From NCBI RefSeq assembly GCF_001886815.1, contig NZ_CP018099.1, forward strand, positions 1,238,501-1,302,500: a DNA stretch of 64,000 bases. The letters are read 5' to 3'. Shown one piece after another: positions 9,544 to 63,963 of the stretch. Every line of letters starts with the position of its first letter. The first letter of the stretch is position 1. The notes under the pieces are model-generated. The model searched no databases and had not been told where the DNA came from. It saw only the letters and a list, made by a program, of their open reading frames with translations. Both the position numbers and the translations under genes were made by a program. Source of the stretch: Caldithrix abyssi DSM 13497. GTDB taxonomy: Bacteria > Calditrichota > Calditrichia > Calditrichales > Calditrichaceae.

Positions 9544-9743
9544 TTAAAAGATGGTATCATCGATCTCTGTTTGCTATCGTCGGTTTTGAGCTGATCTCCC
9601 TGGCAGCCACGCCAGCATTTACCACGTTCCTCCCGCAGCAAGCGTTTTTTTATTTTCTCCTTAAGCGCCGCAATGTCTTCCGGATTTATTACGCTTTTGG
9701 GCTTCAATGCCGCTGAACGTTCACGGTTGGGCATACGGAATAA
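9544..9743 (-). other. gap holding a doubtful antisense open frame
   Basis: A minus-strand frame (9528-9854) contains, from an ATG at 9734, a charged peptide with MPNRERSAALKPKSV, INPEDIAALKEKIKKRLL and a Cys-rich piece CWRGCQGD. Its codons look like those of nearby genes, but I see no ribosome-binding site, it runs 16 nt into the 3' end of the antiporter gene, and I do not recognise it. It may be a remnant of a lost gene. Confidence 0.25.
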
Positions 9744-9772
9744 TTGAAAAAAAACATTTTTTTTATTATACT
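9744..9772 (+). promoter_or_regulatory. candidate promoter for nhaA
   Basis: TTGAAA (9744-9749) and TATACT (9767-9772) are 17 nt apart. The start codon of nhaA is at 9995, which would give an AT-rich leader of about 215 nt with no recognised riboswitch. A closer promoter cannot be excluded. Confidence 0.45.
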
Positions 9773-9994
9773 GCATCAAACAAATACGGGAAATTGGTAG
9801 AATTTTTAGGCTGGAAATACAAAACAAAATGGCAAGAACATATTTTAAGCGCATGTCCCCCTTTAGACCACCAGACCCAAAATGCAGTGTTTTTTTATAT
9901 TAATTTCGATTACAAAATGTATGTTATGGTTTTTTTTGAGAATACATTTGTTTGATTAATGTGCATGTAAGTAAAAATAAAACAAGAGGTACTG

Positions 9995-11185
9995 ATGAAG
10001 AAAATAATTGAAGATTTCATCCAGAAAGAATCGTCCAGCGGCATTTTATTGATCATTGCTACGATTTTAGCGCTTATGATGAACAATTCGTTCATGTCCG
10101 GAGTGTATCAAACATTTTTACATATTCCCATAGAAGTGCGGATCAGTGCATTACATCTTGACAAAACACTTTTGCATTGGGTGAATGATGGTTTGATGGT
10201 CATTTTCTTCTTTTTAATTGGTCTTGAAGTAAAAAGAGAAACATTGGAAGGTCATTTATCGACCTTAAAACAGGCCGCTTTACCGGGAATTGCCGCTGTT
10301 GGCGGAATGGCCATCCCGGCAGTGATATATTTAGCATTTAACATTGGCGATCCCATTGCGGTTAACGGCTGGGCGGTTCCCTGTGCAACGGATATTGCTT
10401 TTGCCCTGGGCGTGCTTTCCTTGCTCGGGAAAAGAGTTCCCATATCATTAAAAATATTTTTACTGGCGCTGGCTATTATTGACGACCTGGGCGCCATTGT
10501 AATCATAGCTGTCTTTTATACTTCCCAGTTGTCCATGGCATCATTAGCGGTTGCCGGCGTGGCTCTGGCGGCATTGATTATTCTTAATTTACTGGGCGTC
10601 ACCAAAAAAACGCCTTACTTTCTTATTGGCGTAATATTATGGGTGGCTGTTCTTAAATCTGGCGTTCATGCAACCCTGGCCGGCGTAGCATTAGCCTTTA
10701 CAATCCCCTTGTACGGAAAAAGAAAAAATGAAAACGGCGAATTTGAGTCCCCTCTAAAAGAATTGGAACACAGCATCCATCCCTGGGTTGCGTTTTTCAT
10801 CCTGCCAGTATTTGCTTTTGTCAACGCCGGGGTAAACCTTTCCGGAATGTCAATCAATCAGATGTTTGGCCCGGTGCCTCTTGGAATTATGTTGGGCTTG
10901 TTTTTAGGTAAACAGCTTGGCGTTTTTGGATTTAGCTGGCTGGCCATCAAGTTAAAAGTGGCCAGGTTACCAGAACAGAGTAACTGGATGCAGTTGTATG
11001 GCGTTTCTATATTAACCGGCATTGGTTTTACCATGAGTTTGTTTATTCTTACCCTGGCCTTTGAGGATGATAGTCTCTTTCAATATACCGATAAACTGGC
11101 CATATTGTTAGGGTCTTTAATGTCCGGAGTGATTGGATACCTGGTTCTCAGGATTTTCAAACCCCATACCAACCAGACATCTTAA
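9995..11185 (+). CDS. nhaA: Na+/H+ antiporter NhaA
   Basis: 396 residues, close to the 388 of the E. coli protein, with AAGAGGT before ATG. Family signatures are clear: VNDGLMVIFFFLIGLEVKRE in TM2, the substrate-binding pair of Asp in LALAIIDDLGAIVIIA (TM5, the Asp163/Asp164 equivalent), PCATDIAFALGVLSLLG in TM4, and a C-terminal TM11 with GIGFTMSLFI. It exchanges two H+ for one Na+ and would serve sodium and pH homeostasis in a salty habitat. It is the second cation/proton antiporter in a row on this strand. Confidence 0.96.
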   Translation: MKKIIEDFIQKESSSGILLIIATILALMMNNSFMSGVYQTFLHIPIEVRISALHLDKTLLHWVNDGLMVIFFFLIGLEVKRETLEGHLSTLKQAALPGIAAVGGMAIPAVIYLAFNIGDPIAVNGWAVPCATDIAFALGVLSLLGKRVPISLKIFLLALAIIDDLGAIVIIAVFYTSQLSMASLAVAGVALAALIILNLLGVTKKTPYFLIGVILWVAVLKSGVHATLAGVALAFTIPLYGKRKNENGEFESPLKELEHSIHPWVAFFILPVFAFVNAGVNLSGMSINQMFGPVPLGIMLGLFLGKQLGVFGFSWLAIKLKVARLPEQSNWMQLYGVSILTGIGFTMSLFILTLAFEDDSLFQYTDKLAILLGSLMSGVIGYLVLRIFKPHTNQTS

Positions 11186-48964: not shown

Positions 48965-49657
48965 ATGCGTACACTAATATCGCTTACATTTTTTATCTTT
49001 TTTATGGGAATGAGCTCGCTAAGTCACGCTCAGGATACGCAGTTAAACTTTTTCACTGATCCTGAGTGGGAAAAGTATCCTTTTAAGCCGGGCGATGGAT
49101 TGATGATTTCCACCTTACCGGATACCACTTCCTTTATTAACGGCGTTTATCCCATCGATGACCGTGGTTTTGCTGAACTGCCCATGATCGGTAAGGTTAA
49201 CGTTTCTAAAATGACCGTACATCAATTGGTCGCTTTTTTGAGAAAAAATTATGAAAGCTATTTGAGATTCCCCAATATTTACGTTAAACCATTGGCCAGA
49301 GTGAGCCTGTTAGGTGGTTTTACCAGACCGGGGCTTTACTATGTTGACGTTAATAGTTCGTTGTGGGACCTGATTTACATGGCCGGCGGAACTTTGACAG
49401 AGGATGGTATTTATGAAATGCACTGGCAAAGAAACGAGAAAGAACGCTCCGGCGACCTGACCGGGTTTTTTGAGAGCGGTATCTCCTTAAAAAAGATGGG
49501 CTTTAAATCCGGCGATATATTCTGGACGCCCTCGCCGACTCGCAGAACGTTCTGGGACAAAGTAAGAGATGTAATGCCCATTTTGACCTTTGCTACAACG
49601 GTCTGGGCCATCTATAATACGTACCAGCGAGACATTTTAATTTTACGAAGCAGATGA
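48965..49657 (+). CDS. polysaccharide export protein (Wza-like, Poly_export/SLBB)
   Basis: 230 residues with a signal peptide ending near SLSHAQ. Residues about 35-105 form the Poly_export domain (FKPGDGLMISTLPDTTSFIN, DRGFAELPMIGKVNVSKMTV), followed by one SLBB-like domain (RVSLLGGFTRPGLYYVDVNS). A membrane-spanning helix near 200-220 (MPILTFATTVWAIYNTY) closes the protein, which is shorter than E. coli Wza (379). It would form or dock an outer-membrane or periplasmic channel for the polymer together with the following BY-kinase. Confidence 0.87.
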   Translation: MRTLISLTFFIFFMGMSSLSHAQDTQLNFFTDPEWEKYPFKPGDGLMISTLPDTTSFINGVYPIDDRGFAELPMIGKVNVSKMTVHQLVAFLRKNYESYLRFPNIYVKPLARVSLLGGFTRPGLYYVDVNSSLWDLIYMAGGTLTEDGIYEMHWQRNEKERSGDLTGFFESGISLKKMGFKSGDIFWTPSPTRRTFWDKVRDVMPILTFATTVWAIYNTYQRDILILRSR

Positions 49658-49681: not shown

Positions 49682-52018
49682 ATGAATAACCAAAAAAAAT
49701 CAACGGATTTAAATCTCACCGATTCCAAAATGGATTGGCAGCATTACATCAAATTGTTCAAACGTAAAAAGTGGTTAATGCTGCTTTTATTTATTTTCGG
49801 TTTTTTGTTTAGCGCCGCCTTTCTTTATAAAATCAGTCCGCGTCCCGTTTACCAGACACAGGCCCTCCTGCAATTTCAGGATACCAGGTCCTTAAACGAG
49901 CTGGATTCGAGAAGACGGCCAGATTTTGAAAGCAAGCTTGGCATTTTGATGAGCCGTAAGTTCCTCGGAAAGATCGTTGACGATTTAAGTCTGGTGGTGC
50001 GCTTTAGCGGAGTGGACCGCTATGAAGCGGTGGACAGCGTCTTTTTACATCCCAATTATTTAAAGGGCCGTTTTGTCCTTAAAAAACAGGGCAATAAATT
50101 ACTGCTTTTTTACACCAGCCAGGACCATTCCATCGAAGATAAAAAAGTACTGGAAGTCGATTATCCGGAAGACCGATTGATCGTTTATGGCGGGGTGGGC
50201 TTAAAGCTAAAAGACCGCTACTGGCAGCAGCATGACAAACTGATTTACACGGTAAATTCACGGCCCAGAGCGATTGAAAGTCTTTTAAGCTCTTTGGGCT
50301 ATCAATTTAAAAACCGGGCCAGAACCCTGCTGGTTTTAACCCTTAAAGGGGAAGACCGTTATTTAATTACCGCCACCCTAAATAAAATTGTGGATTACTT
50401 TGTTCAGGAAAATTTAAATCTGAAAAAGTACCAGACGCGTGAAGTATTGAGCGTGCTGGAAGAGCAATTACAAACCGCCAAGGTAGAATTAGACCGGGCG
50501 GCTCAGGAGCTCAAGCAATTTAGAGAAAAAAATCCATGGGTGGGCTTAACGCCGGATGCCACGGGCGCCATTAGCAGTGTTTCCGCTCTGGAATCGCAAA
50601 AATCGCAACTTGTAAACTTAAAAAATGAGCTGCAAAGCTTAATCAATCGCCTGCAGGCCAAAAGCGGGGAAGAGCGTTATTCGATTTTAAACGAGATCAT
50701 CTCCTTTCTGGGAGCGCAGGACGCGCCAACCGCTCCGGCATTGGCTTCCGAGTTTACAACCTTAACCACCGATCGCAGCCGTTTACTCGCTTCCTACGCC
50801 CCCTCCCATCCCTATGTTAAGGAAAATACCAAAAAACTAAATGAACTGGAAAAGAAGGTTCTATTAACCGCGCAAAATATGATTAACGCCTGGAACAAAC
50901 AAATCAATGACTTAGAACAAAAAATTGTGGAAAACACCAACAAGATCAAACGATTGCCGGCCAAAGAATTGAAGCTGGCGGAATTGGAACGCCAACGAGC
51001 GGTTACGGATGAAATTTATTCCTCTTTGCTTGTGCGCTATAACCAGGCTAAAATAGCTGATGCGGTTGAAGTGGGTGATGTGGTTGTGCTCGATCGCGCC
51101 GTGGTACCGCTGCGCATCAGCCAGTTTAAAACCTATTTTAAAATCATGCTCATCGGTTTAGTTGTAGGCCTGGGCCTGAGCGTGGTGGTAGTGATTGTTA
51201 TCGACTTTTTCGATAAAACGGTACGCAGCGCGGAAGAGCTGGAAAAAGCCATACCGATTAAGGTGATTGGTAAAATCCCGGTTATTAAAACAGAAAAAGA
51301 GATCGTTGACGTCAAGTTTGACGACGCGGTGCGTATCGATCCCAAGCTGGTAACGGCGGACTATTCGCCAACTCCGGTAGGCGAGGCCTATCGCAGTTTG
51401 CGCACGCAGTTGCTATTCAATTCAGATAAAAAGTTGCGCTCAGTTTTTATCACTTCGCTTAATCCGGATGAAGGAAAATCACTCAATGCGGGTAACCTGG
51501 CCATCACCTTTGCCCAACAAAAGTTACCCACCATTTTACTGGATGCGGATTTAAGGCGCGGTGTGCTACACAATTCTTTTGCCTGTAAAAAGAAACCGGG
51601 TTTTTCGGACTTTTTGTACAGCAATGCCGATATTACGGACGAAAACGTACGCAAGATTATTCAAACCACGCATATTCCGAACCTGTACTTGATCAGCAGC
51701 GGCGTGCCCATTCCCAATCCTTCGGAACTTTTAGGCAGCACACGCGCCCAGGAATTGATCCGATTTCTGTCGCATCGTTTTGGCTTTGTTATAATTGATA
51801 CACCGCCGCTGGCGGTCGCTTCGGATGCGGTTATTGTCTCGCGCTATGTGGATGGCGGACTGCTGGTGGTGCGCGCCGGAAAATCCAATATTGTGCAGCT
51901 TAAATCTAAAATCGAAGAGTATCAGGATCTCAGAAAGAATCTGGTCGGAATCGTTTTGAATTTTGCTAAAGAAGACATGGATCATAAAAAATATCGCTAC
52001 ACCTATTACAATTATTAA
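49682..52018 (+). CDS. Wzc-like chain-length/BY-kinase for polysaccharide export
   Basis: 778 residues. A Wzz domain (about 15-460) has its first TM helix near residue 34-53, a long periplasmic coiled coil, and the second TM at about 480-502. The cytosolic BY-kinase part (about 560-778) shows Walker A SLNPDEGKSLNAGN, Walker A' ILLDADLRRG and Walker B FVIIDTPP. The C-terminal end KKYRYTYYNY carries five Tyr in ten residues, the autophosphorylation cluster. It controls chain length and export of the Wzx/Wzy polymer. Confidence 0.94.
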   Translation: MNNQKKSTDLNLTDSKMDWQHYIKLFKRKKWLMLLLFIFGFLFSAAFLYKISPRPVYQTQALLQFQDTRSLNELDSRRRPDFESKLGILMSRKFLGKIVDDLSLVVRFSGVDRYEAVDSVFLHPNYLKGRFVLKKQGNKLLLFYTSQDHSIEDKKVLEVDYPEDRLIVYGGVGLKLKDRYWQQHDKLIYTVNSRPRAIESLLSSLGYQFKNRARTLLVLTLKGEDRYLITATLNKIVDYFVQENLNLKKYQTREVLSVLEEQLQTAKVELDRAAQELKQFREKNPWVGLTPDATGAISSVSALESQKSQLVNLKNELQSLINRLQAKSGEERYSILNEIISFLGAQDAPTAPALASEFTTLTTDRSRLLASYAPSHPYVKENTKKLNELEKKVLLTAQNMINAWNKQINDLEQKIVENTNKIKRLPAKELKLAELERQRAVTDEIYSSLLVRYNQAKIADAVEVGDVVVLDRAVVPLRISQFKTYFKIMLIGLVVGLGLSVVVVIVIDFFDKTVRSAEELEKAIPIKVIGKIPVIKTEKEIVDVKFDDAVRIDPKLVTADYSPTPVGEAYRSLRTQLLFNSDKKLRSVFITSLNPDEGKSLNAGNLAITFAQQKLPTILLDADLRRGVLHNSFACKKKPGFSDFLYSNADITDENVRKIIQTTHIPNLYLISSGVPIPNPSELLGSTRAQELIRFLSHRFGFVIIDTPPLAVASDAVIVSRYVDGGLLVVRAGKSNIVQLKSKIEEYQDLRKNLVGIVLNFAKEDMDHKKYRYTYYNY

Positions 52019-52111: not shown

Positions 52112-53146
52112 ATGAAAGTAGCCGCACTTACACCGTCCAGATATGAAGCGTGGGATGCCTTTGTAGATTATCATCCCTCCGGCAGGATCTATCAAAAGAC
52201 CGTCTGGAAAGCCATTTTTGAGCAGGCTTTTGGCAGAAAAACGCTCTACTATTATGCAGAAGATGAGGCGGGCGAGATTCAAGGTGTTTTACCGCTGGTT
52301 CATTTTCATACCTTTATCGCCGGCAAACAGTTGATCAGCCTGCCGTATGTTAATTATGGCGGGCCCATCTTTAAACATGAGCTGGCCGCTGAGCTTTTGA
52401 TGACTAAGATGCGGGAACTGCTGGAAGCTACAAATTCCGATGTCGTGGAAATCAGATATGATCAGCCACAGGCCTTTGATCTGCCTGTTAAAGAAAATAA
52501 GGTGACCTTTTACCTCAGTCTGCCCGATTCGGCCGATGACCTGCTAAAAAGCTTTAAAGCCAAGGTGCGCAGTCAGATTAAGCGGCCGACTAAAGAAGGA
52601 ATGTATGCTCAAATTGGCCACATTAATTTATTGAACGATTTTTACCATGTCTTTTGCCGGAATATGCGCCATCTGGGCACGCCGGTTTATTCTAAAAAGA
52701 TCTTTCAGGTCATTCTGAACTCGCTGCCCGAGCAGACGCATATTGTGGTGGTTTATTCAAAAGACGGTTTGCCGGTTGCGGCGGCCTTTTTAATGGGCTA
52801 CAAACAGACCATGGAGATCCCATGGGCCTCTTCGTTGCGCAAATACAATCGCTACAGCCCCAATATGTTGCTGTATTGGGAGGCGCTTAAACTGGCAATC
52901 GAAAAAGGGTATAAAATTTTTGATTTTGGTCGGGGAACGCGAGAAGGCGGCACCTATCGTTTTAAAAAACAGTGGGGCGGAGACGAAATCCAGCTTTACT
53001 GGTATTATTTGCTGGGGCCGAACGGGCAATTGCCCCAGGTGAATAAAGAAAATCCAAAATTTGAACGGGCCATTAAAATCTGGCAAAAACTACCTTTGTG
53101 GTTTACCAACCTGGCCGGCCCACCGATTGTTAGAAACATACCATAA
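52112..53146 (+). CDS. FemAB-like (GNAT-fold) transferase
   Basis: 344 residues. The sequence fits the peptidoglycan-bridge/FemAB group in the GNAT superfamily: FVDYHPSGRIYQKTVWKAIF at the start, QGVLPLVHFHTFIAGKQLIS, and the second GNAT half with VVYSKDGLPVAAAFLMGYKQ and FGRGTREGGTYRFKKQWGGD near the end. FemAB proteins use aminoacyl-tRNA and similar enzymes of EPS loci use acyl donors; the donor here is unknown. First gene of the decoration subcluster. Confidence 0.8.
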   Translation: MKVAALTPSRYEAWDAFVDYHPSGRIYQKTVWKAIFEQAFGRKTLYYYAEDEAGEIQGVLPLVHFHTFIAGKQLISLPYVNYGGPIFKHELAAELLMTKMRELLEATNSDVVEIRYDQPQAFDLPVKENKVTFYLSLPDSADDLLKSFKAKVRSQIKRPTKEGMYAQIGHINLLNDFYHVFCRNMRHLGTPVYSKKIFQVILNSLPEQTHIVVVYSKDGLPVAAAFLMGYKQTMEIPWASSLRKYNRYSPNMLLYWEALKLAIEKGYKIFDFGRGTREGGTYRFKKQWGGDEIQLYWYYLLGPNGQLPQVNKENPKFERAIKIWQKLPLWFTNLAGPPIVRNIP

Positions 53147-53160
53147 CGTTGAAGGGAACG

Positions 53161-54279
53161 ATGAATTTAATCCAATACCACTTTAATGAATTAGATAAAC
53201 TAAAAAGCAAATGGGCAGAACTTCATGCAAAAAGCGACGCTTCCAATCCTTTTACCTCATTTGAATGGATTAATATCTGGCTTGGCCATTTTTTAAATGA
53301 TGAAAGTGCCTGTCAGGTGCATGTTGTTTTAGATGACCGCGAAGAAGTTGTGGGCATCATTCCCCTTGTTAATATCCACGAAAAGCACACCGGCGTAACA
53401 TTCAAAGGTTTAAGCTTTGCAGCCAATTCGCATTCGTTTCGCACGCGCCTGCTTGTTTTGCCCGAAAAAAAGCAAGAAATCATTAAGTTCTGGCTGGAAG
53501 CAGTTTGTCAAAATCAATACTTTGATTATTTGCGATTTAAAGAGTTTTTATATGATGAAACGGTCGTAAATATTCTAAAAGACAAAAAGCTGAGGTTCAG
53601 CCTGGAAGAGCCAAAACAGCCGCCATATCTGGATTTAGAAGGAGATTGGGAAAGCTATTTCGGCGGGTTGCGGGGCCACTTCCGGCGCAACTTACGGCGA
53701 CGATTACGCAATGCAGAAAAGGAATATGGCAAGATTGAATATCGTGTGTTCGACGGCAGCGACGAAGAACTGGATGCCTTTGTACTACAAGGCCTGAAGC
53801 TGGAGGCCAGTGGATGGAAGGGGAAGCAGGGTTCGGCCATTTTAAAATCGCAAACCGTAAAAGATTTTTATTTTGATGTGGCGCACAATTTTTTTAAACG
53901 GGGTTTGTTGCATCTCGGCGGCCTTTATTTCGGAGAACGGCTGGTGGCCTTTAATTTCTCCATTATTTATGATCAGGTCTTTTACCTGTTAAAGGTGGCC
54001 TACGACGAATCGGTGGCAAAATTTTCGCCAGGGCAAATTATGACCTATCTTTTACTGAAGCGCTTATTTGAGCAAAAGCTAAAACGCTTCGACTTTTTAG
54101 GCCCTGCCATGCCCTGGAAGCTGGAATGGACCGGGCAGTTTAATCAACATTCCACTTTGTATATCTATGGAAATACCTTTAAAGGTTCTTATCTTTACAC
54201 CTTAAACAGCAAGCTGCTGCCCGCTTTAAGGAAGATCGAATTCTTAAAAAAATTAAAACAGAAGATTATAAAGCGATGA
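53161..54279 (+). CDS. GNAT acyltransferase of CelD/BcsL type
   Basis: 372 residues from ATG at 53161, chosen over a TTG at 53149 because GAAGGG lies just before the ATG. Motifs NPFTSFEWINIWLGHF, EEVVGIIPLVNI and HFRRNLRRRLRNAEKEYG are typical of the CelD/BcsL-like acetyltransferases of polysaccharide loci. It would acylate a sugar or amino-sugar in the cytoplasm. The next gene overlaps its last codon by four bases (ATGA), so they are translationally coupled. Confidence 0.82.
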   Translation: MNLIQYHFNELDKLKSKWAELHAKSDASNPFTSFEWINIWLGHFLNDESACQVHVVLDDREEVVGIIPLVNIHEKHTGVTFKGLSFAANSHSFRTRLLVLPEKKQEIIKFWLEAVCQNQYFDYLRFKEFLYDETVVNILKDKKLRFSLEEPKQPPYLDLEGDWESYFGGLRGHFRRNLRRRLRNAEKEYGKIEYRVFDGSDEELDAFVLQGLKLEASGWKGKQGSAILKSQTVKDFYFDVAHNFFKRGLLHLGGLYFGERLVAFNFSIIYDQVFYLLKVAYDESVAKFSPGQIMTYLLLKRLFEQKLKRFDFLGPAMPWKLEWTGQFNQHSTLYIYGNTFKGSYLYTLNSKLLPALRKIEFLKKLKQKIIKR

Positions 54280-55406
54280 AATACATACCATCACTGCAGG
54301 CCATCAGTCCGTTTTATTTTATTAAACCTTCGGCCAGGGTTTTTGAGCGCTATTATCCTTTCGACCATTCCGGGCTGCACCTTTTCTATTTTGCCCGTAA
54401 TGGCATTTATTTTTTGGGCAAATATCTAAAATCAAAAGGCATCAACCGCATCCTTTTTCCGGCCTATAACCACGGTAATGAAATCAGGGCATTGCTGGCC
54501 TCCGGCTTAAAATTGGAATATTACAATATTCACGCCAGCGCTGAAATTGATTTTGAGCATCTGGAGCGGCAGTTAAAAGACGGAGACTTTCGTGTTTTAT
54601 ATTTTATCCATTATGTGGGCATTGCCCAGAATCTGGAAAAAATTATTGAATTGAAAGAAAAGTACGACTTAATTCTGATTGAAGATAATGCGCTGGGCCT
54701 GTTCTCGGAATACAGAGGACGGCCGCTGGGAAGTTTTGGCGATTTTGGAATATTTTGTTTTTACAAAACGTTGCCTATTCCCAACGGCGGCGGGCTGGTC
54801 ATAAACAACGATTCGTTGCGCTTTCCGATCGAAACCGTACCGCCGCAGCTTTTGTCCACCATTAGTCGCAGCGCCGGCTTATTCTTCAACTGGCTCGATT
54901 TAAGATTTAACGGATTGGGGCGAAAATTACAGGCGGCCAAAAGCAAGTTGTCTTCTGTGGCAGATAAAATGGAAGTGGAGCGCGTGCCGGTGCTGGATAC
55001 GGGCTTTGCTGTGGATAAAGCTGCCTGGGGCATTTCGAAGCTTTCCCGATATTTAATCAATAGAATTTCGGTGGAAAACGTTATCAAAAAAAGACGAGAA
55101 AATTTCAACTTTATGTTAAAACATATTCCTGAAAAATATCATCTTTTTTCAGAATTGCCCGATGGCGCCGTGCCCTGGTTCTTTCCGGTTAAAATAAAAA
55201 ATAGAGAGCCGGTCTTCCAGGAGCTGACCAGGCGAGGCGTTGACTGCGCTCGCTTCTGGCGGCATTTTCATCCGGATATTCCGGCCGAACGTTTTCCGGA
55301 AATAAAAACCCTGCGAGATACCGTTTTAGAATTACCAATACATCAGGATTTAACGGATAAACATTTGAAGTTTGTCTGCGATCAGTTTAATCAAATAGCG
55401 AAGTGA
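54276..55406 (+). CDS. DegT/DnrJ-type PLP-dependent aminotransferase
   Basis: 376 residues of fold-type I. The PLP-binding acid is in LILIEDNALGLFSEYRG and the active-site Lys in IFCFYKTLPIPNGGG, the order expected of DegT-family sugar aminotransferases. The C-terminal small domain ends IHQDLTDKHLKFVCDQFNQI. It should convert a nucleotide-linked keto-sugar to the amino-sugar. This fits the following acyltransferases that could acylate the new amine. Overlaps the previous gene by four bases. Confidence 0.87.
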   Translation: MKYIPSLQAISPFYFIKPSARVFERYYPFDHSGLHLFYFARNGIYFLGKYLKSKGINRILFPAYNHGNEIRALLASGLKLEYYNIHASAEIDFEHLERQLKDGDFRVLYFIHYVGIAQNLEKIIELKEKYDLILIEDNALGLFSEYRGRPLGSFGDFGIFCFYKTLPIPNGGGLVINNDSLRFPIETVPPQLLSTISRSAGLFFNWLDLRFNGLGRKLQAAKSKLSSVADKMEVERVPVLDTGFAVDKAAWGISKLSRYLINRISVENVIKKRRENFNFMLKHIPEKYHLFSELPDGAVPWFFPVKIKNREPVFQELTRRGVDCARFWRHFHPDIPAERFPEIKTLRDTVLELPIHQDLTDKHLKFVCDQFNQIAK

Positions 55407-55407
55407 A

Positions 55408-56556
55408 ATGGATGTAATTTTTTTCTGGAGCAGTGTACTTATCCTGGGATATATTTACCTGGGATACCCTTTAATACTTTTTATTCTGTCCAGGATTATA
55501 AACAAACCGTTAAAAGCGGATGAAAATAATTTGCCCACCGTGGCTCTGGTGATTTCGGCTTTTAATGAAGAGGCCGTCATTAAAGAAAAGATCGAAAACA
55601 CGCTTGGGCTGGATTACCCGCCGCACAAATTACAAATCTGGGTCGTTTCAGATGCTTCAACCGACCACACCGATGAAGTGGTGCGCTCATTTGTCAATGA
55701 CCGCGTGCATTTGCTGCGCATGGAAGAGCGCAGCGGCAAGACCTCCGGCATTACGCGCGTCATGCAAAAAATCGAGAGCGAAATTGTGGTGTTTTCTGAT
55801 GCCAATTCCATGTATGATAAAAAGGCTATTCGGGAGCTGGTCAAATACTTCGCCGATCCGAAAATCGGTTATGTGGTGGGGCACGCGCGTTATTATGACA
55901 ATGGTGAAACCGCCGGTTCGCAGGAAGAGGTGTACTGGTCGCTGGAGATCAAAATGAAAATCAACGAATCGAAAATCGGATCGGTGGTGGGCGGCGACGG
56001 CGCCATTTATGCCATTCGTAAAGATCTTTTTAAACCGCTTGCCCCGGACGACATCAATGATTTTGTGAATCCCATTCAGATTGTTTTGCAGGGTTTTCGG
56101 GGCGTGTTCAATCCTTACGCCGTCTGCTACGAAGAAGCCGCGCCGTCTTTTTTTAAAGAGTACTGGCGTAAAAGACGAATCGTTAACCGCAGCTGGCGCG
56201 GTTTGTGGAAAAATGTTGCGGTTCTAAATCCCTTTAAAACCGGTATTTTTGCCTGGGAAATTTTTAGCCACAAACTTTTACGCTGGCTGGGAGGTCTGTT
56301 TGTTATTACTAGTTTTGCAAGCAATGCGCTCATTGTTAATAAATCGGGATTCTACGCCGTTACAATGACCCTGCATGTCCTTTTTCACCTGGCGGCTTTT
56401 GCAGGGTTTTTCAGAGACAGAAAAGGGAAAGATTCGGCGGGCATCATTAAATTTATCTTTTATTTCGATATGGTGAACTGGGCTTCGCTGCAGGGCATCT
56501 GGGATGCATTCCGCGGCAAGACCTACACCACCTGGAAAACGATTCGGCAGGAGTAA
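55408..56556 (+). CDS. membrane-anchored GT2 glycosyltransferase
   Basis: 382 residues starting with a TM helix (about 4-24). The GT-A domain follows: VALVISAFNEEAVIKEKIEN, WVVSDASTDHTDEVVRSF, and VVFSDANSMYDKKAIRELVK (metal-binding Asp). An acceptor-site segment WRKRRIVNRSWRGLWKNV resembles the QxxRW motif of processive GT2 enzymes, and two TM helices near the C-terminus hold it in the membrane. It builds one glycosidic bond of the repeat unit or a polymer. Confidence 0.9.
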   Translation: MDVIFFWSSVLILGYIYLGYPLILFILSRIINKPLKADENNLPTVALVISAFNEEAVIKEKIENTLGLDYPPHKLQIWVVSDASTDHTDEVVRSFVNDRVHLLRMEERSGKTSGITRVMQKIESEIVVFSDANSMYDKKAIRELVKYFADPKIGYVVGHARYYDNGETAGSQEEVYWSLEIKMKINESKIGSVVGGDGAIYAIRKDLFKPLAPDDINDFVNPIQIVLQGFRGVFNPYAVCYEEAAPSFFKEYWRKRRIVNRSWRGLWKNVAVLNPFKTGIFAWEIFSHKLLRWLGGLFVITSFASNALIVNKSGFYAVTMTLHVLFHLAAFAGFFRDRKGKDSAGIIKFIFYFDMVNWASLQGIWDAFRGKTYTTWKTIRQE

Positions 56557-57621
56557 GTGATGAGTTACACGGTAAAAGTAGCTGATCTGGAAAAAGACAA
56601 ACCAACCATTGTGGCCATTCTGGAACGAAATCGCACGCGTACCGATACCGACTACAGCAAACGCTTTGATTGGATCTATCTGAACAATCCGTTTGGGAAA
56701 GCCAAAGCGTGGATTATCTATAACGATAAAACCGGCGATGCGATTGGCTTTACGGGCGTTTTTCCACGGCCGGTTTTTGTGGAAGGGAAGGAATATCTGG
56801 CCTGGAACTGCGGCGATTTTTCCATTGATCAAAAATACCGCACCCTGGGCGTAGCGCTCAAATTAAGACGTGAGGCCAAAAAGGGCGTTGATTCCGGAGA
56901 AGTCGCTTTGTTGTATGCCCATCCCAACAAAAGGATGGAAGTCATTCACTTCCGTGTTGGTCACCAAAAAATAAGTGAGATGCGCCGTTTTGCGCTTCCG
57001 CTCAAATTTGACCGCTATCTCCGGCAAAAAATTTCCAGCAACGCCCTTGCTGCCGCCCTGGCCCTGCCGCTGAATTTTGGTATGAAGTTGAAGTTTGCTC
57101 TTAAACGATCCGCTAAGGTCGCCGGTCAGATAAAAGCGCAGATCGAATGCAGCGATCAACACGAACAATTATTCGAGCAAATGAAGGCTCAGTTTAAGGT
57201 AATCGGCGTTAGAAATTGCCAATACCTCAAATGGAAATTTGCCGATCATCCTAACTTTAAGTATCAACAATTCGATTGTTTTGAAAACAATCGGCTGAAA
57301 GGCACGATTTTTTTTACGATTAAAGAAGAGACGGTGCATATTATTGACGTACTGATCCCAAATTATCGTGAGATGCTTGTGCCCCTGTTCCTGGAGTTTA
57401 TCAAACAGGTTTACAAAACAAAATCAGGACAAACGCTCTCCTTTATTTTGCAAAAAGATAATCCGATTATTCCTTTATTGAAAAGCATAGGATTCAAGGA
57501 GCGGGATGATGCCACATCGTCGGTTATCGCTTACGCAAACGAAAGTATGAACGAAAAATTAGCAAAAACCATATTACAGGGTTCCAACTGGTACATGACC
57601 GTTGGCGACAGAGATGCATAA
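56557..57621 (+). CDS. GNAT-family N-acyltransferase
   Basis: 354 residues (GTG at 56557 followed by ATG at 56560; CAGGAG at 56548-56553 fits the ATG). The acyl-CoA-binding part is seen in CGDFSIDQKYRTLGVALKLRREAKK with the conserved R/Q-x-x-G-x-A loop, and a second, degenerate GNAT half spans about 205-340 (FKVIGVRNCQYLKWKFADHP). It is probably an acyl-transfer enzyme for sugar amines. Its ACP neighbour suggests an ACP-bound donor. Confidence 0.8.
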   Translation: MMSYTVKVADLEKDKPTIVAILERNRTRTDTDYSKRFDWIYLNNPFGKAKAWIIYNDKTGDAIGFTGVFPRPVFVEGKEYLAWNCGDFSIDQKYRTLGVALKLRREAKKGVDSGEVALLYAHPNKRMEVIHFRVGHQKISEMRRFALPLKFDRYLRQKISSNALAAALALPLNFGMKLKFALKRSAKVAGQIKAQIECSDQHEQLFEQMKAQFKVIGVRNCQYLKWKFADHPNFKYQQFDCFENNRLKGTIFFTIKEETVHIIDVLIPNYREMLVPLFLEFIKQVYKTKSGQTLSFILQKDNPIIPLLKSIGFKERDDATSSVIAYANESMNEKLAKTILQGSNWYMTVGDRDA

Positions 57622-57643: not shown

Positions 57644-57889
57644 ATGGAAATGCATCAGGAAATCATAAACTTTTTATATGACGAGTCCTTAAAAGATGAA
57701 TTTGAAGGATTGGATTATGATGACTCCTTGCTGGAACTGGGCATTATCGATTCGGTCAAGATGCTGGATTTGATTGGTTTTATTGAAGAAAAGTATCAGA
57801 TAAAAGTGGATGACGACGATTTGTATCCGGAAAATTTTGACAGCATAAACGCCATTGTGAACTATATTAAATCAAAAAAAGCAGAATAA
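57644..57889 (+). CDS. acyl carrier protein of the polysaccharide locus
   Basis: 81 residues from ATG at 57644 with GGAGG at 57631-57635, 8 nt before it; an earlier TTG in frame (57602) overlaps the preceding gene and is unlikely. The phosphopantetheine Ser is Ser37 in LLELGIIDSVKMLDLIGFIE, which keeps the DS motif. The protein is acidic and small like dedicated ACPs of amino-acid or acyl activation. It lies between two GNAT genes, so it is likely to present an acyl or aminoacyl group to them. No adenylation enzyme was seen nearby. Confidence 0.88.
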   Translation: MEMHQEIINFLYDESLKDEFEGLDYDDSLLELGIIDSVKMLDLIGFIEEKYQIKVDDDDLYPENFDSINAIVNYIKSKKAE

Positions 57890-57910: not shown

Positions 57911-58582
57911 ATGATCAAAGAAGATTTAAAACGCATTAAAGATGAATTCGGAATGCATGGTGTGTTCCATGCCCTGGAATACAGTTTGATCAACAAAATT
58001 AGTTTTTACAAAGAACTGCAGGGTATGATTGTCACCATGCAGACCCTGAATCCGAAGTATCTGCAAGGCAATCCCAATTACGAGCACCGATTTTTAAGCG
58101 CGGATGAAGTGAAAAAATACGCCGCCGATCCTGAAACGCAGCTGACCGAGAAATTTCTGGAGCGCGCTTTTAAAAAGGGCGACCGCTGTTTTGCCATCCT
58201 GGATGGCGATTTTCTGGCCAGTTATGGCTGGTATTCAACCCAGCCCACGCCCATCAATCAGGATCTTGTTTTATATTTTGACCCGCAGTGGGTGTACATG
58301 TACAAAGGTTACACCCATCCTCGCTACAGAGGACAGCGGTTGCATGCCGTTGGCATGGCCAAAGCCCTAAAAGCGGTGACCGGCGAGGGCTTTAAAGGGC
58401 TGATCTCTTATGTGGAAACCAATAACTTTGCTTCCCTGCGTTCGGTGTACCGCATGGGGTATGTGAACATCGGCAGAGTTAAAATTTTTAGAATCATGGG
58501 CAAATACAGAATCCAGAGCGATAAAGAGTGCGCTCAATACCATTTTACGGTGCGTCCCATTACCAACGAGCAAAGGGGTTAA
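57911..58582 (+). CDS. GNAT-family acetyltransferase
   Basis: 223 residues. The acetyl-CoA site region is visible in YMYKGYTHPRYRGQRLHAVGMAKALKAV, matching the R/Q-x-x-G-x-A/G loop (YRGQRLHAVG), and the C-terminal strand-helix GFKGLISYVETNNFASLRSVYRMGY matches the fourth motif. The first 60 residues are an uncommon helical extension. Likely part of the acyl decoration pathway. Confidence 0.82.
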   Translation: MIKEDLKRIKDEFGMHGVFHALEYSLINKISFYKELQGMIVTMQTLNPKYLQGNPNYEHRFLSADEVKKYAADPETQLTEKFLERAFKKGDRCFAILDGDFLASYGWYSTQPTPINQDLVLYFDPQWVYMYKGYTHPRYRGQRLHAVGMAKALKAVTGEGFKGLISYVETNNFASLRSVYRMGYVNIGRVKIFRIMGKYRIQSDKECAQYHFTVRPITNEQRG

Positions 58583-58588
58583 TGACGC

Positions 58589-60073
58589 TTGGCTAAGGAT
58601 CTAAAAGAAAAAACCAAAGTTGCGGTTTTCTGGAATATTTTTAACATCCTTTTTTCCAAAACTTCGCGCCTGATCACTTCCATTATCTTAGCGCGTATTC
58701 TGTTTCCGGAGGACTTTGGACTTTACGGCCTGACGCTCATTGTAATTCGTTTTGGCCGTCGGCTAACCAATTTTGGTTTTTCCACCGTACTCATTCAAAA
58801 GAAAGAGATCGACAGGTCGGAAATAGATACGGTTTTTACGGCCAGTTTTGTTATTAATTTGACCGTATTTCTGGTTTTGTTTTTCGGCGCGCCTTATTTT
58901 TCTCAGTTCGTGCGCAGTCCTCAGGTAACGCAATTGATAAAGGTTATTTCTTTAACCTTTATCTTGAATACGTTTATAATGGTGGCCGAGAGCTTATTAA
59001 AGAGAGACCTGAATTTTAAAGGGATTTCCATTGCGCGTTCGGCGCGGTCTGTTTTCAGTTATTCCACGGCCATTGTCCTGGCCATTTTAGATTTTGGCGT
59101 TTGGAGCCTTATTTTAGGCGAGGTGTTTTCTGTTGTAGTTAATATGATCCTGGTTCTGATCTATGCCCGATTTGTTCCCCGCATCTACTTTAAATTTTCC
59201 ATATTTAAAAATCTTTATTCCTATGGCATGCGCGTTTCCTTTGTTCAATATCTGGATTATTTCATCAACAACATCGACTACCTGTTAATCGGCCGCTTCC
59301 TGGGGACCGAAGCGCTGGGTTATTATGAACGCGCTTTTAATTTAATGGATATGACGCGTCGGCAAATCGGCAGGTCTATGAACGAGGCCTTGTTTTCTGC
59401 CTTCTCGCGCATTAAAGAGGACGGCCAGCGAGTGGTCAAAAATTTAAAGCAGGTTTTAAGCTACACCTCGTTGGTGGCCTATCCCATTTTAATCGGTTTG
59501 ATCTTTCTGGCTCCGTCGCTGGTGTACAACATGTATGGCCCCAAATGGCTGCATACCATTATTCCGCTCCAGATTATGTGCGTCTCCGGTCTGGTAAAAA
59601 CCATTGGTTCTACCTTTTTCCCGGTGATCTTTGCGCTGGACTTCATTAACCAGCGGATAAAGGCGCAGGTCGTTTATCTGGTCTTGTTAGGCGGATCGAT
59701 TTTGCTTTTTATCCCTTATGGAATAAATGGCGTGGCCGTGGCGGTGGTGCTTTCTTCGATTGTTTACACCCTTTTAATCGTCAGAATTATGATAAAAAGA
59801 CTGCCGTTTACTGTAAGCGATTTATGGCAAACGCAAAAAGCGCCTTTCCTTTACGGAATTTTTCAGGTGGTTTTTAACCTGGCTGCGTTGAGATTTGCTT
59901 TGCCCTATTTTGACATTAAAAGTATTCCCATGTTTTTTATCCTTTCCGCCGCTTCGTTGGCGGCCCTGGGCACGGCCCATCTTATTTTTCGGGAATCGGC
60001 CTATAAAAATTTGTTGTCGGAGTTTTCCACACTTTTCCAAAAATTTTCCGCTGCAAAAAAGAAGTCGGTTTAA
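58589..60073 (+). CDS. Wzx-type polysaccharide flippase
   Basis: 494 residues starting at TTG (MAKDLKEKTKVAVFWNIFNI). There are about 12-14 predicted membrane helices with the Polysacc_synt (MATE/MOP) pattern: FSKTSRLITSIILARILFPE and DFGLYGLTLIVIRFGRRL at the start, and GRFLGTEALGYYERAFNLMD and VSFVQYLDYFINNIDYLLIG in the middle. It moves the lipid-linked repeat unit across the inner membrane. Sits directly after the GNAT gene and directly before the LarA-like gene. Confidence 0.94.
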   Translation: MAKDLKEKTKVAVFWNIFNILFSKTSRLITSIILARILFPEDFGLYGLTLIVIRFGRRLTNFGFSTVLIQKKEIDRSEIDTVFTASFVINLTVFLVLFFGAPYFSQFVRSPQVTQLIKVISLTFILNTFIMVAESLLKRDLNFKGISIARSARSVFSYSTAIVLAILDFGVWSLILGEVFSVVVNMILVLIYARFVPRIYFKFSIFKNLYSYGMRVSFVQYLDYFINNIDYLLIGRFLGTEALGYYERAFNLMDMTRRQIGRSMNEALFSAFSRIKEDGQRVVKNLKQVLSYTSLVAYPILIGLIFLAPSLVYNMYGPKWLHTIIPLQIMCVSGLVKTIGSTFFPVIFALDFINQRIKAQVVYLVLLGGSILLFIPYGINGVAVAVVLSSIVYTLLIVRIMIKRLPFTVSDLWQTQKAPFLYGIFQVVFNLAALRFALPYFDIKSIPMFFILSAASLAALGTAHLIFRESAYKNLLSEFSTLFQKFSAAKKKSV

Positions 60074-61291
60074 ATGATGCGTACCATTCACATACCCTGG
60101 GCGGCCTGGTTTGATGAATCCAGATTGGAGTTGGAGCTGCCGCCGGATTCAATCATAGATTTTTATTCTTTGTCCGATGCGCCGCCGCTGAGCGAAGAAC
60201 ACTTCCGCTTAAAGACCAAAGACCTTTGCAAACTGGTTAAAAAAAAGAACCCCACCAACATCCTGATTGTGGTGGATGATTTGACGCGGCCTGTTATTCT
60301 GGAGCCTTTGTTAAAGACGCTGGTGGACGAACTGCATTCCTGTGGGTTTAAAACAGATCAGATAAGGTTTTTGATCGGGCTTGGCGCGCACCATCCGCTG
60401 AGTAAAGAGAGCGCTGCTAAAAAATTGGGCAGGCAGATTGTTGAAAACTACCGGTGGATCAACCACGATCCGCAGGAAACAGAACCCACCGGCCTGCAGT
60501 GGGGCAAAACCGAATTCCGTTTGAATAAGCATTATTTACAAGCGGATTTTCGCGTGGTGATTAGCGGATTAACGCCCCACAGTTTTGCCGGTTTTAGCGG
60601 CGGGGCTAAAATGCTTATTCCGGGAATTTCAGACTTAGGGATCATTACCAAAACGCACAAATCGGTTTTGATGGGCTTTATGGGCAAATTAGGAGAAGTG
60701 GAGAAAAATCGTTTCCGCCATGTTATCGAAGAGATGGTGGCGCAGGTGGGAATCGATTTCTTCATTGGCGTGGTGATTAACGGCAATCGAACCATTGCCG
60801 ACATCTTTTGCGGCGATTTTAAAGAAGCGCATCGACAGGCGGCGCTCAAAGCCAGGCAATTATATACTACCGAAGCGATGTCCAACGCGCCTTATGATCT
60901 TTTGATTTTAAACGCCTATCCCAAAGATACGGAATTGCTGCAGGCAGAAAATGCCTTTATCCCTTTAAAATCTGCCGACGGAACGTTGTTAAAGGAAGAG
61001 GGAATGGTGCTGGTGACTTCGGCCTGTTCCGAAGGTCTGGGATACCACGGTTTGTTTGGCCCTGGCGGATTGTTGTACCGTAAGCCCCGGCCTTTACGTT
61101 TTTTAAAAGGGCGTCAATTTTTATTTTATTCCCCTAATATTACGCCCGAAGAGTTCAAAACCATTTTCTTTGAAGACTATCCGTTTTTTTCTGATGAAAA
61201 GGCGTTATTCAATTATCTTAAAAAAAACTTGCCGGAGCGCGCTCGCGTGGGCGTGTTCCCCTTTGCCAGTTTACAATTAGTGAGGCCTTAG
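60074..61291 (+). CDS. LarA-like protein (lactate racemase / nickel-pincer epimerase superfamily)
   Basis: 405 residues, somewhat shorter than LarA (about 424). Superfamily residues are visible by eye: DDLTRPVI (TRP Arg), GLGAHHPLS (His), TPHSFAGFSGGAKMLIPGIS (His and the Lys that binds the pincer cofactor in LarA) and the His in KTHKS. The segment corresponding to LarA's QAVKG reads QAENAF, so a Lys known in lactate racemase seems lost, which suggests another 2-hydroxyacid or sugar-acid-like substrate. No LarB, LarC or LarE cofactor genes are in the window. It starts at the base after the flippase stop; the next gene starts three bases after its own. Placement in an EPS locus is unusual. Confidence 0.8.
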   Translation: MMRTIHIPWAAWFDESRLELELPPDSIIDFYSLSDAPPLSEEHFRLKTKDLCKLVKKKNPTNILIVVDDLTRPVILEPLLKTLVDELHSCGFKTDQIRFLIGLGAHHPLSKESAAKKLGRQIVENYRWINHDPQETEPTGLQWGKTEFRLNKHYLQADFRVVISGLTPHSFAGFSGGAKMLIPGISDLGIITKTHKSVLMGFMGKLGEVEKNRFRHVIEEMVAQVGIDFFIGVVINGNRTIADIFCGDFKEAHRQAALKARQLYTTEAMSNAPYDLLILNAYPKDTELLQAENAFIPLKSADGTLLKEEGMVLVTSACSEGLGYHGLFGPGGLLYRKPRPLRFLKGRQFLFYSPNITPEEFKTIFFEDYPFFSDEKALFNYLKKNLPERARVGVFPFASLQLVRP

Positions 61292-61294
61292 CCC

Positions 61295-62569
61295 ATGCCA
61301 GCTACAGCTATTATCTTCATGATTCTTTATGTTACCGGCTTGATTTTGACCTTTCGGCATCCCTATTTTGGAATTGCCACCTATATTTTTGAATGGCATA
61401 ACCATCCGCCCTACATGTGGTGGGGAGACCATCTGCCAGACCTGCGCTGGTCTTTTCTGGTTTCGGTGATTACGTTAATCAGCCTGATTATTAATCACCG
61501 GAAATTAAAGCCGCTGCATGGCGCCAGTTACAAATTGATTTTTTGGCTGGTTGCCTTTACTCTGTGGATGTATTTTATCAGCGCGTTTTATGCGGTGGAG
61601 CCAAAAGAGAGTTTTCGGAAAGCAGAGATATTTTACAAACTCACCATTCAGATTTTTTTGATGATGTACATCATCCGCGAGCCCAGGCATTTTCGCTTTA
61701 TCATCTGGGTTTTGCTGTTAGGAGTGGCCAATTTTGGACGCATTGCCTTTGAACGTGGTTCGAACCGATACCTGGGCGTCATCGCGCCCAATTCAACCGA
61801 AGAAAATGCCATCTCTGCGCACGTGGCTGCCATGCTGCCTTTTTTTGGACTCTATTTTTTAATCGGCAAAAACTGGGAAAAAGTTATTACTCTGCTTTCG
61901 GTGCCCTTTTTGATCAACCTGATTATTCTGGCTAACTCCCGCGCTACTTTTGTGGCCGTTCTGGTCATCGGGCTTCTGGCTGTTATCTGGATTAAGGGCA
62001 AGCTGCGCTGGCGTGTGGTTCTGGCGCTGATAGGAGGCGCCATACTGGTCTTTAGCCTGTCCAACGAACAGTTCTGGGAAAGGCAAAGCACGATTGATGA
62101 ATATCACGAATCAGGCTCCCGGCTTCATTTGTGGCGCGGGGCCATTGAAATGTGGAAAGATCATCCCATGGGCCTTGGAGGAGAAGGCTATCAGGCGCTG
62201 GTAATGGACTATGTGCCTGAATTAAGAGAGATCATGGAAGAAAAGGGCACAAAAACGGTACATAACACCTTTTTGTTGGTTTTAGTGGAATGGGGCTTTG
62301 TGGGCATCATTTTATTTTTTGGCCTTTTAATTCATACGTTTGTCATTCTGGGCAAAATTAGGAGAGACCGCCTGAAAGCGCCGGGCTACAGGTATTATGT
62401 GGACGCCATGGCCATCCAGATGGGGCTTATCGGTATTCTGGTGGCCGGCATCTTTCACAACCGGTTGTACTCGGAGGTTATTTACTGGTTCAGCGCCTTT
62501 GCCGTGGCCCTTAGAAATATTCAGGTAAATGAAATTTATGAAAATGCGCAATTAAGCGAAGAAGTTTAA
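61295..62569 (+). CDS. O-antigen ligase/polymerase-like membrane protein (Wzy_C)
   Basis: 424 residues with about ten membrane helices. The N-terminal FEWHNHPPYMWWGDHLPDLR and the long periplasmic loop with ESGSRLHLWRGAIEMWKDHP and GLGGEGYQALVMDYVP, closing with TVHNTFLLVLVEWGFVG, are the signature of Wzy_C ligase/polymerase proteins (catalytic Arg/His region). It polymerises or ligates the repeat unit in the periplasm. It resembles the putative O-glycosylation ligases of exosortase-linked loci. No exosortase is seen in this window. Confidence 0.87.
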   Translation: MPATAIIFMILYVTGLILTFRHPYFGIATYIFEWHNHPPYMWWGDHLPDLRWSFLVSVITLISLIINHRKLKPLHGASYKLIFWLVAFTLWMYFISAFYAVEPKESFRKAEIFYKLTIQIFLMMYIIREPRHFRFIIWVLLLGVANFGRIAFERGSNRYLGVIAPNSTEENAISAHVAAMLPFFGLYFLIGKNWEKVITLLSVPFLINLIILANSRATFVAVLVIGLLAVIWIKGKLRWRVVLALIGGAILVFSLSNEQFWERQSTIDEYHESGSRLHLWRGAIEMWKDHPMGLGGEGYQALVMDYVPELREIMEEKGTKTVHNTFLLVLVEWGFVGIILFFGLLIHTFVILGKIRRDRLKAPGYRYYVDAMAIQMGLIGILVAGIFHNRLYSEVIYWFSAFAVALRNIQVNEIYENAQLSEEV

Positions 62570-62589: not shown

Positions 62590-63963
62590 ATGAGCCATAA
62601 GAAAAATATATTGTTTTTAACGACCAACTTTCCCCCCAATCCGTCGGTCGGCACCAGGCGGGTGGCTAAAATCTTAAAATACATGGATCATTCGCGGTTT
62701 AATTTTTTTGTTTTAACCTTAAAGGAAGAATATTACAACCGGGAACTGGGAGAACGCATGGGGAATCAGGATAAGATTCCCGCATCCGTTAAGGTTTTTA
62801 GAACGGATAAAAGCGATTTAACGCGCATTTTTACTTTTGCCAAGCAAAAATTAGGACATTTTTTAAAAAAGCGAAAAACCAATAAAGCCTCTCCGGCAAA
62901 AAAAGAGAAAAAGACAGAAAGCGCCGGCAACGGGCAAGCGAGCGGATGGAAAGCGGTATTGATCGATAAACTCCGGAGCTTTTTCTTCGCCTTTTTTGAA
63001 TTCCCCGATAAATACATTGGCTGGCTGCCCCACGCCGTTGCCCAGGGCGCGCGCATCATTAAACATGAAAAAATCGATATCATTTTAACCACGGCTCCGC
63101 CGCATTCACTGTTTTTGATCGCCCTTATTCTAAAAAAAATAACGCACAAAAAATTGGTGCTCGATTTTCGCGATCCGTGGGCCATCTCGCGCTGGGACCG
63201 GGGAAATATTTTCCGCTACGGGATGGAGCGCCTGGTAGAAAAATTATGCGTGCAGGGGGCAGATCAGTTATTTTTTGTTACGCCTAAAATGCGCGACGAA
63301 TATTTAAAGTTGTACCCCGGTGAAAAAAAAGAAAAGTTTCAGCTTTTTTACAATGGCTTTGATCCCGACGATTTTCAGGTTGAAGTAGAAGAAGATGAAC
63401 GCGACGTCCGGGGGCCTTTTCGCTTTGTTCATCTGGGCACGCTTTACAAACGGCGAAATCCGGAAACCCTGTTTATGGCCATCAAAAATCTGCACGAACA
63501 AAAACAAATTTCTCCCGGAAAGGTGAGATTTGAGTTTATCGGCAGCGTGGTGTCTGAATTGCAATTTATCTTTAAAAAAGTAAAAGAATTACAGATAGAA
63601 GATTACGTTACCTTTAAACCGCCTGTTAGCTTTCAGGAAAGCATCCGAACCATGTTCCAGGCCGATGCGCTTTTGTTAATTCAGCCGGAAACCGATTTGC
63701 AGATTCCCGCGAAAATGTTTGAATATATTTACATCGGCAAACCCATTCTGGCCATTGCCGAAGAGAACAGCGCAACGCATCAGTTATTGCAGGAAGCCAA
63801 CGCGGGTATTCTGGCGCCTTCTAATGATATTGAAAAGATAGGGCAGGCCGTTTTGACAATTTTAAGGGAAGAAACTTCTTTTAAACCGCGCGCCGAGTAC
63901 GTGGCCCTGTTTAATTACCAGAAATACGCTAAAAAATTTGAAAGAATATTAGATGGTCTCTAA
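62590..63963 (+). CDS. GT4-family glycosyltransferase
   Basis: 457 residues of the GT-B fold: KNILFLTTNFPPNPSVGTRR (first Rossmann loop), DIILTTAPPHSLFLIALI, LVLDFRDPWAISRWDRGN and the C-terminal GTLYKRRNPETLFMAI, LIQPETDLQIPAKMFEYIYI with the E-x7-E motif region and GKPILAIAE. The segment KKRKTNKASPAKKEKKTESA (about 95-115) is a Lys-rich insert typical of membrane-interaction loops. It adds one sugar from a nucleotide donor. Its end overlaps the start of the next gene by 11 bases. Confidence 0.9.
   Translation: MSHKKNILFLTTNFPPNPSVGTRRVAKILKYMDHSRFNFFVLTLKEEYYNRELGERMGNQDKIPASVKVFRTDKSDLTRIFTFAKQKLGHFLKKRKTNKASPAKKEKKTESAGNGQASGWKAVLIDKLRSFFFAFFEFPDKYIGWLPHAVAQGARIIKHEKIDIILTTAPPHSLFLIALILKKITHKKLVLDFRDPWAISRWDRGNIFRYGMERLVEKLCVQGADQLFFVTPKMRDEYLKLYPGEKKEKFQLFYNGFDPDDFQVEVEEDERDVRGPFRFVHLGTLYKRRNPETLFMAIKNLHEQKQISPGKVRFEFIGSVVSELQFIFKKVKELQIEDYVTFKPPVSFQESIRTMFQADALLLIQPETDLQIPAKMFEYIYIGKPILAIAEENSATHQLLQEANAGILAPSNDIEKIGQAVLTILREETSFKPRAEYVALFNYQKYAKKFERILDGL

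Follow-up and report, generated by a model that had tools for sequence, protein, structure and literature searches.

The window considered here (the whole stretch of DNA that was analysed, 64 kb of the Caldithrix abyssi genome) contains a polysaccharide operon in which an intact open reading frame of 405 amino acids occupies positions 60074–61291 of the forward strand. The TAA stop codon of the upstream flippase gene ends at 60073 and is followed immediately by ATGATG, so that there is no gap between the two genes, and the TAG stop codon ending at 61291 is separated by only 3 nt from the ATG, at 61295, of the downstream Wzy/O-ligase gene. The stop and start codons therefore agree with the tight packing described in an earlier, sequence-only reading of this DNA. 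Its assignment of the gene to a Wzx/Wzy polysaccharide locus also stands, and homologues recur in such loci of related genomes. The genes of the operon are as follows.

48965–49657, + strand: export protein (named from sequence; kept in relatives)
49682–52018, + strand: Wzc-like chain-length regulator (named from sequence; kept in relatives)
52112–53146, + strand: FemAB family protein, XrtA/PEP-CTERM-associated (TIGR03019, 338.4 bits, over the cut-off of 260)
53149–54279, + strand: Acetyltransf_6 GNAT protein (PF13480, 100.2 bits)
54276–55406, + strand: DegT-type sugar aminotransferase homologue (PF01041, 66.9 bits)
55408–56556, + strand: GT2 glycosyltransferase (PF00535, 78.1 bits)
56557–57621, + strand: p354, putative tandem-GNAT acyltransferase of 354 aa (model pLDDT 91.4)
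57644–57889, + strand: acyl carrier protein (ACP), with the phosphopantetheine Ser in GIIDSVKM (PF00550, 1.1e-7)
57911–58582, + strand: GNAT acyltransferase of 223 aa (PF00583, 1.8e-5)
58589–60073, + strand: Wzx-type flippase (PF13440, 261.6 bits)
60074–61291, + strand: LarA homologue of the ACP-associated clade (D69, R72, H106, H169, K179, H195 and Q290 kept; N293 for K298)
61295–62569, + strand: Wzy_C polymerase/O-ligase family (PF04932, 76.4 bits; TIGR03097, 133.5 bits, under the cut-off of 188)
62590–63963, + strand: GT4-kind glycosyltransferase (named from sequence; kept 3' of Wzy in relatives)

The start of the ACP gene at 57644 was picked from relatives, the longest open reading frame beginning at 57602. 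The model of p354 matches N-myristoyltransferase and Eis-type tandem GNATs (Z about 22), and the protein is probably an acyltransferase. The locus holds both an ACP and acyltransferase genes, as an ACP-dependent acyl-group branch needs.

The product of 60074–61291 belongs to the LarA superfamily, as had been proposed from the sequence. It matches Lar_N (PF09861) with 118 bits against a Pfam cut-off of 23.3, and an AlphaFold2 model built from 16 sequences (mean pLDDT 88.8) superimposes on holo LarA (8ezf) with a Z score of 37.1 and an rmsd of 2.8 over 381 residues. All 12 structures with Z above 20 in this comparison (VIA-align) are LarA-type, and the following one scores 6.2; the nearest solved structures by sequence are MAR2, LarA and I. 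pallida LarA. Because the model fits 8ezf and orthologues occur in two phyla, a chance match is ruled out. None of the curated racemase models reaches its cut-off: NF033504 gives 166 of 460 bits, NF052593 gives 207 of 500 and NF052595 gives 186 of 462. This is the one LarA homologue in the C. abyssi genome.

Residues were mapped by alignment with LarA, MAR2 and I. pallida LarA, and the motifs picked out in the sequence-only reading proved to be the correct ones. The Arg of TRP is R72 (LarA R75), the first His of GAHHP is H106 (H108), the His of TPHSFAG is H169 (H174), the Lys of GGAK is K179 (K184) and the His of THK is H195 (H200); D69 (D72) and Q290 (Q295) are also kept. Thus the positions that bind the nickel-pincer nucleotide, NPN (R72, K179 and H195, the same in 19 members of the clade described below) and the catalytic ones (D69, H106 and H169) are all present, with no loss of the cofactor Lys or His in a proper alignment, and D69, R72, H106, H169, K179 and H195 are unvarying in 19 clade proteins. 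Among five full-length members of the Caldithrix family, 36% of columns are invariant, and the chance that all seven given sites would be invariant if they were average sites is about 0.0008, a figure that says only that the cofactor and catalytic site is still under selection.

The sole cofactor or catalytic position lost is that of K298. Where LarA has QAVKG the C. abyssi protein reads QAENA, which places N293 at this position and L289 in place of Y294, and the column is Asn or Thr throughout the clade wherever it is present (the G001 protein ends early at a contig edge). The altered substrate pocket that had been read from this segment is accordingly upheld. The substrate carboxylate is bound in LarA by K298, an Arg, a Gln and two His (PMC11851776), and K298 is also listed as catalytic (PMC7583248). 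With K298 lost and both His kept, the clade would thus be expected to bind the acid group in another way.

In a tree, the clade members cluster together and separately from LarA and MAR2 (support 99/99). It was found in 16 of 40 Calditrichota genomes (15 besides C. abyssi) and in 7 of 82 genomes of a second phylum, and in all 23 readable loci, across both phyla, an ACP gene lies near the LarA homologue. The ACP gene is immediately upstream in 18 of them (G005, G015–G020, G024, G028 twice, G029, G034, G041, G117, G124, G125, G127 and G129) and one or two genes upstream in the other five (C. abyssi, G000, with G001, G003, G008 and G009); the G040 locus, which ends at a contig edge, falls outside the readable set. 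In most loci the tandem GNAT gene comes before the ACP gene; L094 is an exception, and no tandem GNAT gene was seen in L154 or L155. The genes around the ACP–LarA pair differ between the two phyla. A tie of the LarA homologue to the flippase was rejected, since the constant neighbour is the ACP gene; indeed, wzx is directly upstream only in the genus Caldithrix and in G008, and lies elsewhere in the other loci. It follows from this limited adjacency that ACP-linked acyl groups are the better place to look for the substrate. The ACP, which the sequence-only reading had missed along with the tandem GNAT, would thus seem a better clue to the substrate than closeness to the flippase.

Two other features of related loci were noted. 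In G020 (L084, 6841–8093) the Wzy gene is present as two overlapping open reading frames beside an intact LarA gene, reflecting a frameshift or an assembly error. Downstream of the window, L096 encodes, in the same locus, two proteins apparently of the heparinase type, at 3303–5573 (called by its place and its likeness to L081:15319–17565, which matches Hepar_II_III) and at 7953–10469 (called from a weak HepB match).

An ACP-dependent branch would also call for an enzyme that loads the acid. With a threshold of E <1e-170, an AMP-dependent ligase is present in 14 of the 16 Calditrichota genomes with the clade versus 5 of the 24 without it (Fisher p = 6e-5, which ignores kinship and is not a formal probability). 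The ligase resembles TIGR03098, although it scores under that model's cut-off; it adjoins the FemAB gene in the neighbouring family f2, and the ACP/LarA genes in L013, L095, L151 and L154–L156. A candidate acid–ACP ligase is present in the C. abyssi genome at C1:358798–360318, outside the operon, and is 56% identical to the ligase in f2 loci. Additionally, ligase–ACP pairs occur in polysaccharide loci that have no gene of the LarA clade (L115, L117 and L119, from G004, G036 and G012), with an asparagine-synthase-type gene upstream (profile-scanned in L115). The ligase/ACP module therefore exists without LarA.

These observations suggest a model in which the protein acts as a LarA-type 2-hydroxy-acid epimerase in a branch of exopolysaccharide synthesis where acylation depends on an ACP, whatever the source of its cofactor, and we put this at even chances. 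The AMP-dependent ligase would load an organic acid onto the small ACP, and the LarA homologue would invert the alpha-carbon of the 2-hydroxyacyl group, presumably by hydride transfer; this could happen on the ACP thioester or earlier, while the acid is still free. Transfer to an amino sugar would then fall to the tandem GNAT (56557–57621) and/or the GNAT and FemAB proteins, after which Wzx and Wzy would export and polymerise the decorated unit. Since the ACP is constant, the tandem GNAT usual and the ligase co-occurring, the most likely role of the LarA homologue is to determine which stereoisomer of a 2-hydroxyacyl group, either free or carried by the ACP, goes on to an amino sugar of the exopolysaccharide; an amino sugar is suggested as acceptor by the DegT-type aminotransferase gene in the operon. 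Three things count against this model: the position of the ligase outside the operon in C. abyssi, the fact that loss of K298 does not single out a thioester substrate, and the gene content described next.

The C. abyssi genome is a single contig of 4.98 Mb and is 100% complete, yet neither larC nor larE was found in it, nor larB even at E 10. The PP-loop matches were all assigned to other enzymes, which we take to be NadE (two), ArgG, GuaA, MnmA, TilS and QueC. A hidden LarE among them was rejected because each match, when read, looks like another enzyme, and the state of the assembly rules out incompleteness as the cause of the absence. It is unlikely that LarB or LarC was overlooked, since the same searches find them in 12–14 sister genomes, two of them in the same family. 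All three genes are absent also from five family-mates that carry the clade gene (G001, G003, G005, G008 and G009; 93, 95, 97, 95 and 72% complete). So far as the known cofactor route is concerned, this gene content, which the sequence-only reading had itself named as grounds for refutation, contradicts the nickel-pincer dependence proposed there for C. abyssi, whereas the other elements of that reading (a LarA-superfamily protein, the polysaccharide setting, the residues and the pocket) have stood.

The situation differs elsewhere in the phylum. In f2, larB, larC and larE are all present in five of six genomes. G015–G017 have larB, larC and larE (in G015 larC, larE and larB lie together) and no PF09861 protein other than the clade member, which makes use of NPN plausible there. 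Across the phylum the three cofactor genes track each other (p < 2e-8) but the clade gene does not track them (p 0.3–0.5).

Two readings of the cofactor thus remain, namely that the Caldithrix family obtains NPN from a source outside the known route, or that the protein works there without it. The second could mean that the pathway is as proposed above but that, in this family, the protein uses another nucleotide or metal, or serves as an ACP-binding or structural protein. The retention of gene and operon in all six genomes without larB, larC and larE, together with the independence of the clade gene from these genes, is consistent with such an arrangement. However, some loss of cofactor-contact and catalytic residues would then be expected, and these are unchanged in this family, including the tether Lys and the nickel-ligand His; we regard it as rather unlikely. 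The proposition that the clade inverts an ACP-bound acyl group for polysaccharide decoration and, in one family, manages this where the known nickel-pincer biosynthesis is absent, through another cofactor route or with a different LarA cofactor, we judge unlikely.

Several features of these genes were noted in the 40 Calditrichota genomes (G000–G039). larB, larC and larE are jointly absent from 16 of the 28 genomes with any PF09861 protein; among those at least 90% complete, eight lack the three genes versus eight that have them. The genomes lacking them include some with GntE-like proteins (L070–L074) that have all catalytic residues and K298. Conversely, G025 and G026 have larB, larC and larE and no PF09861 protein, and another NPN user may exist there. 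The LarB model gave zero matches in G000 and most genomes of family f1, not even PurE-type ones, which it does give for control genomes and other families; G000 and most f1 genomes may lack PurE or have a divergent form of it.

Whether the group inverted is bound to the ACP bears on a further alternative, in which a sugar acid or hydroxy acid is inverted in free form for the polymer precursor pool and closeness to the ACP gene reflects no more than a shared operon. LarA enzymes of known activity do use free acids (PMC7583248, PMC11770544). Distant relatives of the clade (L018–L024, about 29–33% identity) have as neighbours, in the cases inspected, aldehyde dehydrogenase, an IlvD/EDD-type dehydratase of the sugar-acid type, or oligopeptide transporters, and a search by ORF and motif saw no ACP neighbour. 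The K298 position is Asn in six of these seven proteins and Leu in one, so loss of K298 was rejected as proof of a thioester substrate. Against the alternative, the ACP gene is constant in two phyla despite differing surroundings, and the clade has basic residues of its own. Seven basic positions are conserved only in the ACP clade (K193, K205, R213, R239, R336, R342 and K345, of which R336, R342 and K345 fall outside the stretch covered by the three partial PDB sequences used for comparison) but, by the same rule, only one acidic position; they may fit the docking of an acidic ACP, although this is only suggestive. The overall pI of the clade was rejected as a sign of ACP binding, since it ranges from 5.0 to 9.3 with no clear shift. 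Inversion of a free acid for the precursor pool therefore seems to us quite unlikely. Since the distant relatives mostly have larC (six of seven genomes) and had already lost the Lys, the ancestor of the ACP clade may have been an acid epimerase that used NPN and that lost this residue before the partnership with the ACP arose.

Finally, that an ordinary lactate or malate racemase lies by chance in a polysaccharide locus is very improbable, for although the best curated models are the malate racemase LarAH6 (207 bits) and LarAH5 (186 bits), these scores are far under the cut-offs of 500 and 462 bits, K298 is lost, and the clade keeps to polysaccharide loci in two phyla with a conserved gene block.

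A literature search for LarA combined with ACP or polysaccharide found nothing relevant. If the LarA homologue is indeed part of ACP-linked polysaccharide decoration, the family would extend to biosynthesis and possibly to thioesters. The ACP-linked locus thus hints at a new job for the LarA family, and at an unexplained cofactor supply: an invariant cofactor site in genomes without larB, larC and larE raises the question of whether there is a second supply of the nickel pincer or a LarA that works without it.

In the literature consulted, the LarA enzymes whose activity is known act on free 2-hydroxy acids, which they invert, and they depend on NPN made by LarB, LarE and LarC. The C. abyssi protein resembles LarA of L. 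plantarum and I. pallida and the malate racemase MAR2 over the whole fold (Z 31–37) and has the equivalents of D72, R75, H108, H174, K184, H200 and Q295. It differs from them in having Asn for K298, Leu for Y294 and Ser-Phe after the second His, and in being encoded in an ACP-linked polysaccharide locus of a genome without larB, larC and larE. LarAH groups of unknown function that lack K298 or H174 have been described (PMC7583248); the C. abyssi clade likewise lacks the K298 equivalent but keeps both catalytic His. The presence of larB, larC and larE without LarA has been reported for cyanobacteria (PMC11796402), and C. abyssi, with a LarA homologue and none of the three genes, is the mirror image of this. 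In function, the proposed branch can be likened to that of V. cholerae O1, in whose polysaccharide the amino sugar perosamine bears a 2-hydroxyacyl group, 3-deoxy-L-glycero-tetronate; acylation with tetronate there requires a gene that encodes a putative ATP-binding domain, and no LarA-type epimerase is described in that system (PMC3441752). As regards their associated genes, which alone were compared, XrtA/exosortase-associated polysaccharide loci are also similar: the FemAB protein exceeds the TIGR03019 cut-off, the TIGR03097 match and the TIGR03098-like ligase fall below theirs, and ligase–ACP pairs occur in related genomes. What sets the C. abyssi type of locus apart from these is the addition of a LarA gene to the ACP block.
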